The notes beneath the pieces were generated by a model. It was not told the origin of the DNA, searched no databases, and was given only the letters and a program-made list of their open reading frames with translations. Position numbers and translations under genes: made by a program. Positions 3,781 through 50,733 of a stretch of DNA of 64,000 nucleotides are shown here, piece by piece (position 1 is the stretch's first letter; every line of letters begins with the position of its first letter). The stretch comes from Rhizobium sp. SL86 (GTDB lineage: Bacteria; Pseudomonadota; Alphaproteobacteria; Rhizobiales; Rhizobiaceae), in the NCBI RefSeq assembly GCF_026672545.1, contig NZ_JAPPRJ010000009.1, forward strand, positions 1-64,000, in the 5' to 3' direction.

Positions 3781-4464
3781 ATCGTGCCGGCACGCCGTCG
3801 CCATCGGATCGTCAACCCGCTGTTGCAAAACATCTTTCCGCAAATCCTCGGGTCAACCACAAGCGCCACGTCAAAAAAATCGCCCGCGCAATTTCCCCAC
3901 CCTCATCCCCCATGCCTACAATCCCCCCGTCCCGCAGCGGATACACCGGCAGGCGTGCCGGCGATGCGGGGCCGGTTCGGGTCATGAGGACAAGACGCAA
4001 AGCCTCATGACCTGAGTCCGTCAACAGGATCCCCCTCCGGCGACCGGGTGGAGGCAATGCGCGTCGGACGTCAGCGCAGTGTCTCCAGAGTTCCCAGCGT
4101 TGCGCGCCGGACGTGCCTTATGGGGCACACAAGGGGATGGAGGTCGGGGGTCGCATCGCCCGTTGTCCGCCCGCGTCGTCCGATCAGGAATGACGCCGGG
4201 AACGGTGATGGCAACGTCTCCCGCCCATCCATCCAGTCAGAGGGATCGACCGGCGGATAAAAATGCCGAACGGGGCGCTGAGAGGTGCCACATTATTATT
4301 TGCTTACGAGGCAGCTTTCAGCGCCCCGGCCGATGCCATCTCCGAAGGGGGATGTGGAGAGAAACAAGGATCAAACCACGGGCCGACAGGTCGCGTGAGG
4401 GCGACACCGTGCCCTGTGGAAAGCGGGCAAAGGTTCTTCTGTTTACCCTTCGTTCAACAAAATC
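3781..4464. other. Gene-free intergenic stretch upstream of the SOS promoter
   Basis: I see no convincing gene here on either strand. The open frames are short and lack both start signals and recognisable proteins. The only clear structure is the perfect inverted repeat at 3980-4012, listed separately. Parts of 4048-4260 could be decayed coding or repeat DNA, but nothing is identifiable. Confidence 0.6.
3980..4012. repeat. Perfect 10-bp inverted repeat (hairpin)
   Basis: GGTCATGAGG at 3980-3989 is matched exactly by CCTCATGACC at 4003-4012, with a 13-nt loop. There is no U-tract on either side, so it is not a standard intrinsic terminator. It could be an operator, a recombination scar or part of a small RNA. 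Confidence 0.6.
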
Positions 4465-4479
4465 GTTCCGCTTTCGTTC
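4465..4479 (+). promoter_or_regulatory. LexA (SOS) box 1, GTTC-N7-GTTC
   Basis: GTTC at 4465-4468 and GTTC at 4476-4479 are separated by exactly seven bases. This is the direct-repeat LexA recognition sequence established for alphaproteobacteria. It lies just upstream of the -35 element at 4486, and a second box lies in the promoter spacer. Confidence 0.8.
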
Positions 4480-4485
4480 TTTTTC

Positions 4486-4514
4486 TTGACGCGAGAACAG
4501 GAATGGAACAAAAT
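4486..4514 (+). promoter_or_regulatory. SOS promoter with LexA box 2 between -35 and -10
   Basis: The -35 element TTGACG (4486-4491) and the -10-like CAAAAT (4509-4514) have a 17-bp spacer. Inside the spacer is GAAC-N7-GAAC (4495-4509), a second perfect alphaproteobacterial LexA box in the opposite sense to box 1. LexA bound here would block RNA polymerase. The predicted transcript starts near 4521, a few bases ahead of the ribosome-binding site of the 28-codon gene. Confidence 0.8.
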
Positions 4515-4542
4515 AAAAACATAACGGAAAAGGAGAATGCAG

Positions 4543-4629
4543 ATGACCGAAATTCTTCGCGATGTTGCCGCTTTCGCCTCCATCATGACCTTCGTTGCCA
4601 GCATCAGCGTTTTGATGCTCGCCATGTGA
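4543..4629 (+). CDS. SOS-controlled 28-residue membrane peptide (SidA-like by size and control)
   Basis: A tiny gene too short for routine gene callers. AAAAGGAG at 4528-4535 gives an ideal Shine-Dalgarno 7 nt before the ATG at 4543; the in-frame ATG at 4537 is too close to it. The product begins with a short polar head MTEILRDV. The remaining 20 residues are almost entirely hydrophobic or small, with no charge, long enough for one transmembrane helix. The gene sits directly behind a promoter with two LexA boxes. Known parallel: Caulobacter SidA, a 29-residue SOS-induced inner-membrane protein that blocks division through FtsW/FtsN. Homology to SidA is not claimed; the similarity is in size, topology and regulation. 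dnaE begins 151 bp downstream and may be partly co-transcribed. Confidence 0.75.
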   Translation: MTEILRDVAAFASIMTFVASISVLMLAM

Positions 4630-4780
4630 CGCTTGGCGCCGGTTCCCCTGGCCGGCCCCCTGGCCAGCTCGTCGCTGGCACACTTCACAGCTTTGCGTCC
4701 CGCCGGTCACGCTTCGGCTGGACTTCACGGTCCCACTGCCGGACAATGCGCCTTCAGACTCGTAAGAAGGCACAGGCAGC

Positions 4781-7700
4781 ATGGCAGAGATGATCGACGG
4801 CACGGTAACGGACGGCGCGGGACGGGCGGAACAGAGCCCGCAATTCGTGCATCTGCGCGTGCATTCGGCCTATTCTCTGCTCGAAGGCGCGCTGCCGCTG
4901 AAGAAGATCCTCGGCAAGGCCACCGCCGACGGCCAGCCGGCGATCGCCATTACCGATACCAACAACCTTTTTGTCGCGCTCGAGTTTTCGCAGAAGGCGG
5001 TGGATGACGGCATTCAGCCGATCATCGGCTGCCAGATGTCGATCGATATGCAGGATCAGGGTGACGAGAAGCGCGGCGGCAATGCCGGTTTCGTCAAACT
5101 GCCCTCGCTCGTGCTGCTGGCGGCCAACGCTGTGGGTTATGAGCGGCTCGTCGATCTCGTCAGCCGCGCCTATCTCGGCGGTGAGGGCTCTCACCAGTCG
5201 GTGCACATCGCCATGTCCTGGCTGGAGGAGGGTGGTGCGGACGGCATCATCGCGCTGACTGGTTTTGCCTCGGGTCCGATCGATCCGCTGCTGAAGGAAG
5301 GCCACCATGCCCAGGCGCTCCAGCGTCTCCTGCGACTGAAGGCCGTCTTTGGCGACCGGCTCTATGTCGAACTGCAGCGCCACGGCAACTATGACCGCCG
5401 CCACGAACGCCGTCTGATCGAGCTCGCTTATGAGCACGACCTGCCGCTGGTGGCGACGAACGAGGCGTTTTTTCCCTCCAAGGGGGAATACGACGCCCAT
5501 GACGCCCTGATGGCGGTGGCCCACAATGCCATCGTCTCCGACGACACCCGCTTCCGTCTGACGCCGGATCATTATCTCAAGAGCCGGGCGGACATGGCAA
5601 AGCTGTTCGCCGATCTGCCGGAAGCCTTGGAGAATACGGTCGAGATCGCACGCCGCTGCTCCTTCGTGCTCAAGACGCGCAAGCCGATCCTGCCGCGTTT
5701 CACCGGGGCGACGGATGATGCGGAGGAGGCCGAACGCGCCGAGTCGGCGGAATTGCGCCGCCAGTCGGTCGAAGGCCTGGAACAGCGTCTGGCAGCACTC
5801 GGTATGGCGGCGGGTTATACCGAACAGGATTACCGCGAGCGGCTGGATTTCGAGCTTTCGGTCATCGAACGCATGAAGTTTCCGGGTTACTTCCTGATCG
5901 TTTCCGACTTCATCAAATGGGCGAAAACGCAGGATATTCCGGTCGGTCCGGGCCGCGGTTCGGGGGCTGGCTCGTTGGTCGCCTATGCGCTGACCATCAC
6001 CGATGTCGATCCCTTGCGGTTCTCCCTGCTGTTCGAACGCTTCCTCAACCCGGAACGTGTCTCGATGCCCGACTTCGACATCGACTTCTGCCAGGACCGC
6101 CGCGAAGAGGTGATCCGTTACGTGCAGCAGAAATACGGCCGCGAGCAGGTGGCGCAGATCATCACCTTCGGTTCGCTGCAGGCGCGTGCGGCGCTGCGCG
6201 ATGTCGGTCGTGTGCTGGAAATGCCTTATGGCCAGGTCGACAAGATCTGCAAGCTGGTGCCGAACAACCCGGCCAATCCGACGCCGCTCTCGAAGGCGAT
6301 CGAGGAGGAGCCGAAACTGCAGGAGGAGGCCGAGCGCGAGCCCGTCGTCGCACGCCTGCTCGATATCGCCCAGAAGATCGAGGGGCTTTACCGCCACGCC
6401 TCGACACATGCCGCCGGCATCGTGATCGGCGACCGGCCGCTGTCGAAGCTGGTACCGATGTACCGCGATCCGCGCTCCGACATGCCGGTCACCCAGTTCA
6501 ACATGAAATGGGTGGAACAGGCGGGCCTGGTCAAGTTCGACTTTCTCGGCCTGAAGACGCTGACGGTCTTGAAGACGGCGGTGGATTTTGTCGCCAAACG
6601 CGGCATCCATGTGGATCTGGCGACGATCCCGCTGGATGACACCAAGACCTACGAAATGCTGTCGCGCGGCGAAACGATCGGCGTGTTCCAGGTGGAAAGT
6701 GTTGGCATGCGCAAGGCGCTGCTCGGCATGAAGCCGGACTGCATTGAGGACATCATCGCCCTCGTTGCCCTCTATCGTCCGGGCCCGATGGAAAACATCC
6801 CGGTCTACAATGCCCGCAAACATGGCGAGGAGGAGATCGAATCGATCCATCCGACGATCGATTACCTGCTGAAGGAAACCCAGGGCGTCATCGTCTACCA
6901 GGAACAGGTCATGCAGATCGCGCAGGTCCTGTCCGGTTATTCGCTTGGCGAAGCCGATCTCCTGCGCCGCGCCATGGGTAAGAAGATCAAGGAGGAGATG
7001 GACAAGCAGCGGGCCCGTTTCGTCGATGGCGCGATCAAGAACGGCGTGTCGAAGGCCCAGGCCGACCTGATCTTTGATCTGCTCGCCAAATTCGCCAATT
7101 ACGGCTTCAACAAAAGCCATGCGGCAGCTTACGCCATCGTCTCCTACCAGACGGCCTATATGAAGGCGCATTACCCGGTCGAGTTCCTCGCCGCGTCGAT
7201 GACCTATGATATGGCCAATACCGAGAAGCTGAACGATTTCCGGCAGGATGCCGCCCGTCTCGGCATCAAGGTCGTGCCGCCGTCGATCCAGACCTCGTTC
7301 CGCAAGTTCGAGACCGGTGAAAACTGCATCTTCTATTCGCTGGCCGCCATCAAGGGTGTCGGCGAATCCGCCGTCGAACATATCGTTGCCGTGCGTGGCG
7401 ATACGCCCTTTGCCAGCATCGAGGATTTCTGCCTGCGGATTGACCCGAAACAGGTGAACCGCCGTGTGCTGGAAAGCCTGATCTATGCCGGCGCCTTCGA
7501 TTGTTTCGGCAAGGACCGCGCCGAGATGGTGACCGGCCTCGACCGCATCATCGGTTATGCGCAGCGCGCCGCCGAAGGCAAGACGAGCGGCCAGCATGAC
7601 ATGTTCGGCTCCTCATCGGCGGCCGGCCCGGAAAAGCTGATCCTGCCGGCCTTCGATCCCTGGACCGCGTCGGAAAAACTGATGCGTGAATACCAGGTGC

Positions 7701-8287
7701 TCGGTTTCTATCTCTCCGCCCATCCGCTCGATACCTACAAGGATGTGCTGGCCAAGATGCGCGTGCAGAACTACGCGGAATTCTCCGCCGCGGTGAAGGC
7801 GGGCGCCAGCGCCGGCCGTCTTGCGGGCACGGTGACGTCGAAACAGGAGCGCAAGACCCGCACCGGCAACAAGATGGGCATCGTCACCTTTTCCGACGCC
7901 ACAGGCCAGTTCGAGGCGATCCTGTTTTCCGAGGCGCTGAACCAGTACCGCGACCTGCTCGAACCCGGCAAGTCGCTGGTCATCACCGTGCAGGCGGACG
8001 AACGGCCGGAAGGTATCGGGTTGCGCATCCAGACGGTGCAGTCGCTGGAGGAAAAGTCGGTGCAGATGCAGAAGGCGTTGCGCGTTTATGTGCGCGATTC
8101 CGGACCCTTGCGCACCGTGGCACGCCACCTCAATGCGAGAGGCGATGGCCTTGTCTCCTTCGTCGTCATCAAGGATGACGGCAAACGCGAGATCGAGGTG
8201 GAACTGACGGAGAAATACCGCATCTCGCCGGAAATTGCCGCCGCGCTGCGCGCCGCGCCGGGCGTTCTCGACGTGGAACTGGTCTGA
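4781..8287 (+). CDS. dnaE: DNA polymerase III alpha subunit
   Basis: Replicative polymerase catalytic subunit, 1168 aa (E. coli 1160). The N-terminal PHP domain starts at FVHLRVHSAYSLLEGA. The palm carries GPGRGSGAGSLVAY and the catalytic PDFDIDF aspartates near residues 425-431. A helix-hairpin-helix region follows (ESAVEHIVAVRGDTPF), then an OB fold beginning around LAGTVTSKQERKTRTGNKM. The length and intact PHP domain indicate the housekeeping DnaE1 rather than the mutagenic DnaE2/ImuC. The start at 4781 is preceded by AGAAGG. It lies downstream of the SOS-type promoter and the 28-residue peptide gene, so a DNA-damage-dependent contribution to its transcription is possible but not shown. 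Confidence 0.97.
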   Translation: MAEMIDGTVTDGAGRAEQSPQFVHLRVHSAYSLLEGALPLKKILGKATADGQPAIAITDTNNLFVALEFSQKAVDDGIQPIIGCQMSIDMQDQGDEKRGGNAGFVKLPSLVLLAANAVGYERLVDLVSRAYLGGEGSHQSVHIAMSWLEEGGADGIIALTGFASGPIDPLLKEGHHAQALQRLLRLKAVFGDRLYVELQRHGNYDRRHERRLIELAYEHDLPLVATNEAFFPSKGEYDAHDALMAVAHNAIVSDDTRFRLTPDHYLKSRADMAKLFADLPEALENTVEIARRCSFVLKTRKPILPRFTGATDDAEEAERAESAELRRQSVEGLEQRLAALGMAAGYTEQDYRERLDFELSVIERMKFPGYFLIVSDFIKWAKTQDIPVGPGRGSGAGSLVAYALTITDVDPLRFSLLFERFLNPERVSMPDFDIDFCQDRREEVIRYVQQKYGREQVAQIITFGSLQARAALRDVGRVLEMPYGQVDKICKLVPNNPANPTPLSKAIEEEPKLQEEAEREPVVARLLDIAQKIEGLYRHASTHAAGIVIGDRPLSKLVPMYRDPRSDMPVTQFNMKWVEQAGLVKFDFLGLKTLTVLKTAVDFVAKRGIHVDLATIPLDDTKTYEMLSRGETIGVFQVESVGMRKALLGMKPDCIEDIIALVALYRPGPMENIPVYNARKHGEEEIESIHPTIDYLLKETQGVIVYQEQVMQIAQVLSGYSLGEADLLRRAMGKKIKEEMDKQRARFVDGAIKNGVSKAQADLIFDLLAKFANYGFNKSHAAAYAIVSYQTAYMKAHYPVEFLAASMTYDMANTEKLNDFRQDAARLGIKVVPPSIQTSFRKFETGENCIFYSLAAIKGVGESAVEHIVAVRGDTPFASIEDFCLRIDPKQVNRRVLESLIYAGAFDCFGKDRAEMVTGLDRIIGYAQRAAEGKTSGQHDMFGSSSAAGPEKLILPAFDPWTASEKLMREYQVLGFYLSAHPLDTYKDVLAKMRVQNYAEFSAAVKAGASAGRLAGTVTSKQERKTRTGNKMGIVTFSDATGQFEAILFSEALNQYRDLLEPGKSLVITVQADERPEGIGLRIQTVQSLEEKSVQMQKALRVYVRDSGPLRTVARHLNARGDGLVSFVVIKDDGKREIEVELTEKYRISPEIAAALRAAPGVLDVELV

Positions 8288-9680: not shown

Positions 9681-10973
9681 TCAGCTTGGTTTCTTCAGGG
9701 TGCCGAAGGTGAAACCGGTTTCCACCGCCGCCTTGCCGAACTTGTCGCGCAGCCGGTCCATGGCTGCTTCGGCGGCCGCCCGGCGGGCCGCCTGCGGATC
9801 GACAAGGTCCGGCGGATCGGCACGGTCGGGATCGCAAAGATCCGTCACCCCGATGCCGATCAGGCGGAATTTCGTGCCGTCGGTTTCCTTGTCCAGCAGG
9901 CTCAAACCGGTGCGGAAAATGCGGTCGGCGAGCTGCGTCGGGTCTTCCAGCCGGCGATTGCGGGTCCGGCTCTTGAAGTCGGCCGTCTTCAATTTCAGAA
10001 CGACGGTGTGGCCGGCAATCGCCTGTTTCTTCAGCCGGTGCGAAACCTTCTCTGACAACGCCCGCAGGATCGGCACGAGATCCTCATGGCGGGAAATATC
10101 GTCGAAAAAGGTGGTTTCGGCGGACACGCTTTTGGCCGGATCGTTCGGATGTACGCTGCGGTCGTCGATGCCGCGCGACAGGCGGTAGAGGCGCTGTCCC
10201 ATGGTGCCGTAACGGCGCATCAGGTCGCCCTCATCCATCCCCTGCAGCTGCCCGATGGTGCGGACGCCGTCCGCCTGCAGCGTCGCGGCAAAGGCCTTGC
10301 CCACCCCCCAGATCGTCGTGACGGGGCGCGGCGCAAGAAAGGCCAAGGCCTCCTCGCGGCCGATCACGGAAAAGCCGCGCGGTTTCTGCAGGTCGGAGGC
10401 GACCTTGGCCAGGAATTTGCAGTAGGAAAGGCCGACCGACAGTGTGATGCCGATCTCGTTTTCCACCCGCCGCACCAGTTTGGCCAGGATGCGGGCCGGC
10501 GGATCGTGATGCAGCCGTTCGGTGCCGGAAAGATCGAGAAAGGCCTCGTCGATGGAGAGCGGCTGGACGAGCGGTGTCAACTCCTGGAACAGCGTGCGGA
10601 CCTGCCGGCCGACGGCGACGTATTTTTCCATGTTGGGCCGGATGACGACGGCGTCCGGACATGCCTCCAGCGCCTTGAACATCGGCATGGCGGAGCGCAC
10701 GCCGCTGATGCGGGCGATGTAACAGGCGGTCGAGACCACGCCGCGTTTGCCGCCGCCGATGATCACCGGTTTGTCGGCAAGTTCCGGATTGTCGCGTTTT
10801 TCCACCGAGGCATAAAAGGCATCGCAGTCGATATGGGCGATCGACAGGTCGTAGAGTTCCCGGTGGTAGAGAAGCCGCGGACTGCCGCAACTGCGGCAAC
10901 GGCGCCTGCCTTCCGGTTGGCCGGTCAGGCAGTCACGGCAGAAGCCCGGATCGTAAGCGGCAAGCGGCGGCAT
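9681..10973 (-). CDS. dinB: DNA polymerase IV (Y family)
   Basis: Error-prone translesion polymerase, 430 aa from the chosen start. Y-family motifs are present: [19 protein letters not shown], a [14 protein letters not shown] block, the SIDEAFLDL catalytic acidic pair, and a C-terminal little-finger domain. An N-terminal extension with two CxxC pairs (CRDC and CRSC) looks like a zinc ribbon, as I recall in other rhizobial DinB proteins. The in-frame ATG at 11006 overlaps a probable -10 element and lies upstream of a LexA box, so the ATG at 10973 was preferred, although no strong Shine-Dalgarno precedes it. Confidence 0.95.
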
Positions 10974-10979
10974 GGCACG

Positions 10980-11030
10980 GAACAAAGGTTGAACGAACGC
11001 CACCATAAGTCCGCACCGCGACCGTTACAA
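10980..11030 (-). promoter_or_regulatory. dinB promoter with LexA box
   Basis: On the minus strand, TTGTAA (11030-11025), a 17-bp spacer and TATGGT (11007-11002) form a reasonable -35/-10 pair. They are followed at once by GTTC-N7-GTTC (10994-10980), a perfect alphaproteobacterial LexA box covering the predicted start point. SOS control of dinB is well established in this group, so this box supports reading the other boxes at 4465-4509 as genuine. Confidence 0.8.
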
Positions 11031-48279: not shown

Positions 48280-50733
48280 ATGATCAGATTGATTGGATAC
48301 CTGTTTGGCCTGGCCTGTGCTGGCTTTCTTGCGGTGGCGGCGGTTGTTGCCGTCTACCTCAGTGGCGTATCCAGAGATCTGCCGAACTACGAGGTGCTGG
48401 CCTCCTATGCGCCGCCGGTTGCCACCCGCGTGCATGCCGGCAACGGCGCCCTGATGGCCGAATACGCCCGCGAAAAACGTCTCTTCCTGCCGATCCAGGC
48501 GATCCCCGATCGGGTGAAGGCCGCCTTCCTTTCGGCGGAAGACAAGAATTTCTACAACCATCCCGGCGTCGATTTCTGGGGCCTGGCGCGTGCCGTGGTC
48601 AACAACGTGCAGAACATCGGCTCGGGCCGCCGCCCGGAAGGCGCCTCCACCATCACGCAGCAGGTGGCGAAGAACTTCCTTCTGACCGCCGATCAGACGA
48701 TTGACCGCAAGGTCAAGGAAGCCATCCTGTCGTTCCGCATCGAACAGGCCTATTCCAAGGACAAGATCCTCGAACTCTATCTGAACGAGATCTTCTTCGG
48801 CCTGAACTCTTACGGCATTGCCGGCGCAGCACTCACCTATTTCGACAAGTCGGTGACCGAACTGACGATTGCCGAAAGCGCCTATCTCGCCGCCCTGCCG
48901 AAGGGACCTGCCAATTACCATCCCTTCCGTCACGAAAAGGCGGCGATTGAGCGCCGCAACTGGGTCATCGACCGCATGGCGGAGAACGGTTACATCACCG
49001 TCAGCGACGCCGAGGATGCCAAGAAGCAGCCGCTCGGCGTGCAGCCGCGCCGCTCGGGATCCACGCTGTTTGCGTCAGATTATTTCTCCGAGGAAGTTCG
49101 CCGGCAGATCATCGAGAAGTATGGCGACAAGGCGCTCTATGAGGGCGGCCTGTCGGTGCGCACCTCGCTTGACCCGCAGATGCAGGTGATGGCACGCGCC
49201 GCCCTGCAGAAGGGGCTTGAGGATTATGATCAGCGCCGTGGTTTCCACGGTCCGATCCAGAAGATTTCGATGGACGGCGACTGGGGCGAGCCGCTGGCAA
49301 AGATCCCGGCCTTTCGGGACGTGCCGGAATGGAAGCTTGCCGTGGTTCTCGCGGTCTCCGCCTCGCGCGTCGATATCGGCCTGCAGCCGCAGACGGTGGG
49401 CGGCAAGCTGGAAGAGGAACGCAAGCGCGGTTTCATTGCAGCCGACCAGATGCGCTGGGCCTTCCGCGACGCCAAGGGCGAACGCAAGACCTCCAAGACG
49501 CCGGAAGGTGTCGTGGTGCCGGGTGACGTGATCTATGTCGAACCGATCGAAGGGGAGGACAATGCCTACCGCCTGCGCCAGCCGCCGAAGGTACAGGGCG
49601 GCATGGTGGTGATGGATCCGCATACCGGTCGCGTGCTCGCCATGGTCGGCGGGTTCTCGTATGCCCAGTCGGAATTCAACCGCGCCACCCAGGCGATGCG
49701 CCAGCCGGGCTCTTCCTTCAAGCCGCTGGTCTATGCGGCAGCGCTCGACAACGGATATACGCCCGCCTCGGTGATCCTGGACGCGCCGATCGAAGTGGTC
49801 TCCGGCGGCCAGGTCTGGCGTCCGGAAAACTATGGTGGCGATTCGGGCGGTCCGTCGACGCTGCGCACCGGCATCGAGAAATCGCGAAACCAGATGACCG
49901 TTCGTCTTGCCAACGACATGGGCATGGACCTCGTCGCCGAATATGCCGAACGGTTCGGCATCTACGACAAGATGGCGCCGCTCCTGTCGATGTCGCTCGG
50001 TTCCGGTGAAACGACGGTGCTGCGTATGGTCTCCGCCTATGCGGTGATCGCCAATGGCGGCAAGCAGATCAAGCCGACGCTCGTCGACCGGATCCAGGAT
50101 CGTTTCGGCAAGACGATCTTCCGCCATGAGGAGCGCACCTGCGAAGGCTGCAACTTCAACAGCTGGGCCAATCAGGACGAACCGACGCTGGTGGACAACC
50201 GCGAACAGGTTCTCGACCCGATGACCGCCTACCAGATCACCTCGATGATGGAAGGCGTCGTGACCCGCGGGACTGCCGCCGGCAAGATCCCGGTCAAGGA
50301 TCGTCCGGTCGCCGGCAAGACCGGCACCACCAATGACGAAAAGGACGCTTGGTTCGTCGGCTTCACGCCCAACCTCGTCGCCGGCCTTTATATCGGTTTC
50401 GACAATCCGGCACCGCTCGGCCGTGGCGGCACCGGTGGTGGTCTTGCCGCACCGATCTTCGGCGATTTCCTGGCGCAGGCGGCAAAGGTCACGCCGCCCA
50501 GCAAGTTCCAGGTGCCGGAAGGTATGCAGTTCATCGCCGTCAACCGCAAGACCGGCATGTTTGCGCTCGAAGGCGAACCGGATACGATCATCGAGGCCTT
50601 CAAGCCCGGCACCGGTCCGGCCGATACCTTCTCGGTCATCGGCATGGAGGATCAGGTGGCGCCCGAGGAGATCCTGAAGTCCTCGCCGCAGGCGCAGCAG
50701 GCCGTCACCTCCGGGGCGGGCGGCCTCTTCTGA
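48280..50733 (+). CDS. mrcA: Penicillin-binding protein 1A
   Basis: Bifunctional class A enzyme that polymerises and cross-links peptidoglycan, 817 aa. An N-terminal anchor (GYLFGLACAGFLAVAAVVAV) precedes the glycosyltransferase domain with the catalytic glutamate in LSAEDKNFYNHPG and STITQQVAKNFLL. An inserted OB-like segment typical of PBP1A lies at about residues 310-440. The transpeptidase has SSFK (in RQPGSSFKPLVY), the SRN triad in EKSRNQM and VAGKTGTTND. It lies between a septal amidase gene and prfB. Confidence 0.96.
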   Translation: MIRLIGYLFGLACAGFLAVAAVVAVYLSGVSRDLPNYEVLASYAPPVATRVHAGNGALMAEYAREKRLFLPIQAIPDRVKAAFLSAEDKNFYNHPGVDFWGLARAVVNNVQNIGSGRRPEGASTITQQVAKNFLLTADQTIDRKVKEAILSFRIEQAYSKDKILELYLNEIFFGLNSYGIAGAALTYFDKSVTELTIAESAYLAALPKGPANYHPFRHEKAAIERRNWVIDRMAENGYITVSDAEDAKKQPLGVQPRRSGSTLFASDYFSEEVRRQIIEKYGDKALYEGGLSVRTSLDPQMQVMARAALQKGLEDYDQRRGFHGPIQKISMDGDWGEPLAKIPAFRDVPEWKLAVVLAVSASRVDIGLQPQTVGGKLEEERKRGFIAADQMRWAFRDAKGERKTSKTPEGVVVPGDVIYVEPIEGEDNAYRLRQPPKVQGGMVVMDPHTGRVLAMVGGFSYAQSEFNRATQAMRQPGSSFKPLVYAAALDNGYTPASVILDAPIEVVSGGQVWRPENYGGDSGGPSTLRTGIEKSRNQMTVRLANDMGMDLVAEYAERFGIYDKMAPLLSMSLGSGETTVLRMVSAYAVIANGGKQIKPTLVDRIQDRFGKTIFRHEERTCEGCNFNSWANQDEPTLVDNREQVLDPMTAYQITSMMEGVVTRGTAAGKIPVKDRPVAGKTGTTNDEKDAWFVGFTPNLVAGLYIGFDNPAPLGRGGTGGGLAAPIFGDFLAQAAKVTPPSKFQVPEGMQFIAVNRKTGMFALEGEPDTIIEAFKPGTGPADTFSVIGMEDQVAPEEILKSSPQAQQAVTSGAGGLF

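Follow-up and report, generated by a model that had tools for sequence, protein, structure and literature searches.

A LexA-boxed 28-codon gene upstream of dnaE in Rhizobiaceae is a probable ortholog of Caulobacter sidA

Introduction

What does a reading frame of only 28 codons, preceded by two LexA boxes and followed by dnaE, encode in a rhizobial genome? The locus lies in a 64,000-nt stretch of Rhizobium sp. SL86 (contig NZ_JAPPRJ010000009.1, positions 1 to 64,000), referred to hereafter as the window. A first-pass annotation of this DNA had proposed that the frame encodes a SidA-like checkpoint peptide under LexA control. SidA of Caulobacter is a 29-aa inner-membrane protein that has FtsW and FtsN as two-hybrid partners and blocks division (PMC4211646), and the filamentation of a Caulobacter lexA deletion strain is due to sidA (PMC12700426). 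The literature that we searched, which was mostly without subscription papers, names no rhizobial SidA, and in it we found no description of a damage-induced stop in division in rhizobia, agrobacteria or their relatives.

Results and Discussion

A LexA-boxed promoter and a 28-codon ORF precede dnaE

The features of the locus are collected in Table 1. Both LexA boxes claimed in the first-pass annotation are exact, the promoter is present with box 2 in its 17-bp spacer, and the Shine-Dalgarno sequence and the ORF with a membrane helix are also as described. TTGACG-17-CAAAAT (4486-4514) is the sole promoter-like match within 4380-4800, where 0.1 would be expected, and the final base of box 2 is the first base of the -10 hexamer (4509). 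The ORF begins with the ATG at 4543 and its stop codon occupies 4627-4629. An in-frame ATG at 4537 (30 aa) was rejected as the start because the Shine-Dalgarno sequence is too near and because 80/80 named relatives have 28 codons. The mean Kyte-Doolittle hydropathy of residues 8-28 is 2.21, and we propose a peptide with a short cytoplasmic N-terminus and one membrane helix. Between the stop codon and the dnaE start (4781) there are 151 nt in which no terminator-like site was found, so dnaE may share the transcript of the peptide gene.

Table 1. Features of the peptide locus in the window
Feature	Position	Strand	Basis or remark
LexA box 1 GTTCCGCTTTCGTTC, GAAC-N7-GAAC	4465-4479	-	exact match; upstream of -35
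-35 hexamer TTGACG	4486-4491	+	sequence
LexA box 2 GAACAGGAATGGAAC, GAAC-N7-GAAC	4495-4509	+	exact match; in promoter spacer; conserved operator
-10 hexamer CAAAAT	4509-4514	+	sequence
Shine-Dalgarno AAGGAG	4530-4535	+	sequence; 7 nt ahead of ATG
28-codon gene MTEILRDVAAFASIMTFVASISVLMLAM, proposed sidA ortholog	4543-4629	+	conservation, coding selection, profile similarity
dnaE (DNA polymerase III alpha)	4781-8287	+	TIGR00594 above cut-off, 1219.7 bits; conserved downstream neighbour

The whole window holds four exact boxes against 2.33 expected by chance, and a pair within 45 bp arose in 3 of 300 shuffles. One of the two remaining boxes (10980-10994) is at the 5' end of a dinB-like ORF (9681-11006, - strand). 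dinB is a classical SOS gene. Because this ORF as called begins upstream of the box, its true start is probably further in. The other box (48772-48786) is within a pbp1A-like ORF (48280-50733) and is probably a chance match.

The peptide gene is conserved and under coding selection

When 100 related genomes were searched by a tblastn-type method, the peptide was found in 57/57 genomes of the same genus, including the window's own (E<=9e-5), and in one copy per genome save for one genome with a weak extra match. The pN/pS of the ORF was 0.254 for the 56 usable same-genus sequences (51 distinct; one of the 57 loci, with N, was left out), compared to a minimum of 0.55 and a median of 0.88 in 200 column shuffles and to 1.4-4.0 in the other frames and on the reverse strand. 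The ORF had 28 codons in 55 of these loci and 36 codons in two; in the latter (L057 and L058, from genomes G012 and G018) the peptide is 8 residues longer, with an extra GPGGVPTF. At the family level the peptide was matched at E<=1 in 74 of 151 genomes. We analysed 69 of the 76 places found besides the window's own, leaving out 7, and the ORF was exactly 28 codons long in 65 of the 69.

Named genomes were approached through a dnaE alignment scan that was blind to the peptide, and the best 80 of 570 relatives were kept (Rhizobium, Neorhizobium, Agrobacterium, Sinorhizobium/Ensifer, Shinella, Allorhizobium, Pararhizobium and others). A 28-codon peptide gene was upstream of dnaE in all 80 of these best named Rhizobiaceae loci; as the 80 loci and the 57 same-genus genomes are partly the same genomes, the two counts overlap. 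The presence in 57/57 genomes, the pN/pS of 0.25 and the 80/80 named loci indicate that the 28-codon ORF is a real gene, and judged from the sequence its control by LexA is near certain. The first-pass annotation would have been refuted by a reading frame that relatives do not share; the frame is shared, with selection in this frame only. In the profile built from rhizobial peptides (A1), M1, D7 and F17 were invariant and S13 was present in at least 90% of rows. A1 comprises 44 hand-picked peptides from the genus and family loci, with near-duplicates and a box-less group starting MRDLL excluded and one 32-residue peptide trimmed to 28. Conservation along a helical face of the peptide was marginal (p 0.03-0.09). 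A PLSDB search with the peptide gave weak matches only (best E 0.2), located in named Sinorhizobium and Shinella records.

Scans of the window peptide against Pfam and NCBIfam found no family match, and the named S. meliloti record (Ak57), whose gene table is incomplete, lists no gene in the lolD-dnaE region. To this extent the earlier description of the gene as invisible to normal gene callers stands; it must be qualified by a Ribo-seq study of S. meliloti 2011 in which sORF25, a translated and unannotated ORF in the dnaE1 5'-UTR, was reported as a possible uORF and was detected in unstressed cells (PMC10117765). The main text of that paper mentions neither SidA nor LexA. In S. meliloti Ak57, the 28-codon MADFVRDLAAFASMSLFIVSISVIALGL has two exact LexA boxes ahead of it and is the sole complete sense ORF of at least 20 aa that lies wholly between promoter and dnaE. 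sORF25 is very probably the 28-codon peptide gene of S. meliloti. The Ak57 record CP090106.1 (L248; 3.72 Mb) is titled pSymB, carries dnaE and proS, and looks chromosomal.

The conserved operator lies within the core promoter

Among the 57 same-genus loci, the interval -90 to -25 contained an exact box in 17 and a box with one mismatch in the other 40, so that a box at <=1 mismatch was present in 57/57, compared to 7% of shuffled sequences. Of the 69 family loci, 60 carried an exact box between -85 and -30. For the best 80 of 570 named dnaE loci, an exact box was found in the 90 nt ahead of the start in 68 and a box at <=1 mismatch in -90 to -25 in 78. Two exact boxes were seen at 11 of the 57 same-genus loci (the window and 10 others), which shows that the twin exact boxes are not a general trait. 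The conserved feature is a box that comes after TTGAC within the promoter. This arrangement was present at 57/57 same-genus loci by a loose pattern with only the second GAAC fixed, and at 55/69 family loci by a stricter pattern. The box directly after TTGAC places the operator within the core promoter.

Caulobacter sidA occupies the same position

In Caulobacter, dnaE is CC1926 (PMC1839093) and sidA is CCNA_02004 (PMC10769358). These locus tags suggest that sidA and dnaE are neighbours. We take genome G809 to be Caulobacter crescentus, as it has a 100% identical match to PopZ. The dnaE of this genome is directly preceded by a 29-codon ORF that lies behind an exact LexA box and additional near-boxes; the product of this ORF matches the NCBIfam model NF033228 'cell division inhibitor SidA' over its full length (2e-20). 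In 30 Caulobacteraceae genomes searched we obtained 28 dnaE loci; a 29-codon SidA-like ORF was present in 25 and absent in 3, and a box at <=1 mismatch accompanied 25/25 of these ORFs. The order in Caulobacter is therefore sidA-dnaE, and the rhizobial peptide occupies the same slot. At locus L237, presumed to be from Caulobacter crescentus, about 35 nt separate sidA from dnaE, and because of this short gap dnaE may be co-induced there in the SOS response.

The rhizobial profile A1 and a Caulobacter profile of 10 rows (A2) were compared by hhalign. They aligned start to start and without gaps over columns 1-19 (probability 86.6%, E 4.5e-6 for this single comparison), and R6, D/E7, A10, S13 and F17 were common to both in register; R6, A10, S13 and F17 are among the invariant residues of A2. 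When columns 2-29 of A2 were shuffled, none of 200 shuffles attained the score of 23.1 (top shuffle, 14.8). When columns 9-29 alone were shuffled, 1 of 200 attained it (23.3): the N-terminal part holds much of the profile signal, and the helix part contributes some, though not overwhelming, evidence for homology to SidA.

NF033228 itself gave no match to the window peptide at E<=10. Across 57 genomes, of which 35 belong to the window's genus, no sequence exceeded its cut-off, and none of the weak matches listed lay at the peptide. As the cut-off is not reached, we refer to a "SidA-family ortholog" that falls outside the equivalog in NCBI's present definition. SidA and the rhizobial peptide are alike in being the product of a LexA-boxed gene directly upstream of dnaE, in length (29 and 28 residues) and in having a short N-terminus and one helix; they differ in that the FVWMM motif of SidA is absent from the rhizobial peptide and in the gap to dnaE (151 nt in the window, about 35 nt in L237). 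On these comparisons the rhizobial peptide is very likely a SidA ortholog. The first-pass proposal of a SidA-like, LexA-controlled checkpoint peptide is supported beyond analogy, since SidA also adjoins dnaE behind LexA boxes and the profiles align start to start.

The arrangement extends beyond the Rhizobiaceae

An order-level search was carried out with the peptide alone, using neither dnaE nor box. Outside the family, the 21 best peptide matches included 20 with dnaE beside them, and 17 of these 20 loci, which represent nine families, also had an exact box ahead of the peptide ORF. For other orders, we took the dnaE-upstream regions of 89 genomes out of the 157 in which dnaE was matched; 83 were usable and 6 were without a usable dnaE match. 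An exact box was found within 700 nt upstream of dnaE in 20/83 (mean of 1.39 and maximum of 5 in shuffles). In 15/83, from 12 families, a short membrane-helix ORF came after a box, a combination that was never seen in 100 rounds of shuffling. With 63/83 loci lacking an exact box, the box-dnaE arrangement is not universal. When the 15 class-level peptides were compared to a joint profile, 7 matched at E<=0.002 and 8 at E>=0.15. These 8 are putative homologues by their position and operator. A direct class-level homology search with the window peptide gave nothing credible (best E 0.012, short partial matches). It is on balance plausible that SidA is the ancestral peptide by which much of the Alphaproteobacteria check division after DNA damage, a single LexA-boxed helix encoded before dnaE with an operator that has been credited to dnaE, that sORF25 is SidA, and that, where the transcript is shared, the two genes form one SOS operon that both halts division and increases the replicative polymerase.

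Alternative explanations

If the ORF had merely arisen by chance behind a fortuitous promoter, the boxes alone would not speak against it, as exact boxes arise randomly about twice per window; the conservation data (57/57, 80/80, pN/pS, and a box at <=1 mismatch in 57/57) refute this explanation, whose probability is negligible. A different possibility is that the peptide is an SOS division inhibitor convergent with SidA, of independent origin at the same hot spot. The sequences are short, and the 8 of 15 class-level peptides that scored at E>=0.15 against the joint profile would fit such a history. Convergence would have to account, however, for the same neighbour, the same operator placement, a near-identical length and a gapless start-to-start alignment, as well as for intermediate sequences from nine other families of the order, and we regard it as unlikely. 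The peptide might instead be an SOS-induced toxin like TisB or DinQ that collapses the proton-motive force and generates persister cells, with no role at the divisome. Regulation by SOS, the very small size and the single hydrophobic helix are compatible with this, and DinQ is a toxic single-membrane peptide under SOS regulation (PMC3567139). The similarity to the SidA profile, the common gene position and the single-copy, vertical-looking conservation beside dnaE argue against a toxin, as do the conserved R6/D7, S13 and F17, which resemble a binding surface (on weak statistics), making a toxin very unlikely.

The LexA box might also serve dnaE, and the ORF might be a leader, either a uORF or an attenuator, through which translation or transcription of dnaE is adjusted. 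The peptide does lie between box and dnaE at most loci, no terminator-like site follows it, and uORFs were proposed in the Ribo-seq study (PMC10117765). Moreover dnaE, tag and comM are reported as SOS-regulated in Caulobacter and were recovered by an alphaproteobacterial comparative analysis in the same paper (PMC3323433); we take its dnaE entry to refer to this LexA site, with dnaE as the assigned gene. Box and peptide are not always linked to dnaE, however. At 12 of the 69 family loci (L102, L104-L106, L108-L110, L113, L117, L120, L121 and L129) both peptide and exact box were present with no dnaE match in about 1.2 kb on either side, indicating that the box is not simply that of dnaE and tracks the peptide. 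On this basis we reject a box serving dnaE only. By translation, several of these loci adjoin a lipB-like gene and one a carB-like gene; at some of them lolD still lies in front. Selection at the amino-acid level, the fixed length and the invariant D7 and F17 are unlike leader peptides; the RNA fold of the leader/peptide transcript is ordinary (z -0.92), leaving an attenuator unsupported; and no Rfam match was found in 3900-5000. A leader function is thus quite unlikely, and co-induction of dnaE is compatible with the SidA-type explanation.

Proposed mechanism and related systems

Because of its probable orthology to SidA, we propose the same mechanism for the rhizobial peptide. In undamaged cells, LexA dimers on the spacer box (and, in the window, on the upstream box) would hold the gene off. 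DNA damage would activate RecA and lead to self-cleavage of LexA, upon which the strong promoter and Shine-Dalgarno sequence would yield a burst of the 28-residue peptide. The peptide would be inserted as a single helix with its N-terminus in the cytoplasm, might bind the septal cell-wall synthase complex (FtsW, with FtsI/FtsN), and would hold the assembled divisome inactive until repair is over. The comparisons show the gene and its coding selection, the conserved operator and promoter, the synteny with sidA-dnaE and the profile similarity to SidA; for rhizobia we infer damage induction, membrane insertion with this topology, division arrest and an FtsW/FtsN target. There is a good chance that the rhizobial peptide is a division inhibitor that acts via FtsW, and the explanation as a whole, a LexA-repressed rhizobial sidA ortholog that arrests the divisome upon damage, seems likely. 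AlphaFold 3 placed SidA at TM7 of FtsW with low confidence (PMC13396833).

Several other small proteins resemble the predicted product in part. DidA of Caulobacter (71 aa) also has one helix and inhibits the FtsW/I/N complex (PMC4211646); it is longer and SOS-independent (DriD). YneA, SosA, ChiZ and DivS are small damage-induced membrane division inhibitors, and YneA binds FtsW (PMC13396833); in contrast to the rhizobial peptide they are Gram-positive or actinobacterial, and YneA has a LysM domain. TisB and DinQ share the single helix and SOS control with the rhizobial peptide and differ from it in being membrane-acting toxins that have RNA antitoxins and are unconnected to dnaE.

A peptide of this kind is known in SidA. 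The news is its occurrence in rhizobia and, probably, across much of the class, together with its operator and an identity for an orphan sORF. If our reading is true, a single gene would answer how rhizobia and agrobacteria halt division on DNA damage, and a peptide confined to Caulobacter would become a class-wide family, with SidA too diverged for annotation models to detect. The LexA site so far attributed to dnaE would pass to the peptide, and an orphan translated sORF would gain an identity. Dozens of natural SidA variants would be available for mapping the FtsW-binding surface. The arrangement also raises the question of whether division arrest and the supply of replicative polymerase are tied together in one operon.

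Box-less peptides and other matches

At L112, L114, L115 and L119 a peptide match was found with neither box nor dnaE; this is probably a different thing. These four loci and L059 encode box-less SidA-like peptides that start MRDLL and lie away from dnaE. By translation, L115 and L112 seem to have phage-like neighbours, among them a RecE-like protein at L115, and L059 lies after an ArdA-like end. The MRDLL peptides are possibly mobile-element copies, or unrelated. A phage search with one box-less peptide gave no match, and one with a rhizobial peptide gave a single weak match. In Rhizobium phage V1VFA-S (L390, 1180-1308), an annotated hypothetical protein of 42 codons includes a SidA-like stretch that is 43% identical (E 2), maybe by chance. 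A second, more distant dnaE-family gene (TIGR00594, 467 bits), probably dnaE2, is present on another contig (G000:C1:1599540-1602143).
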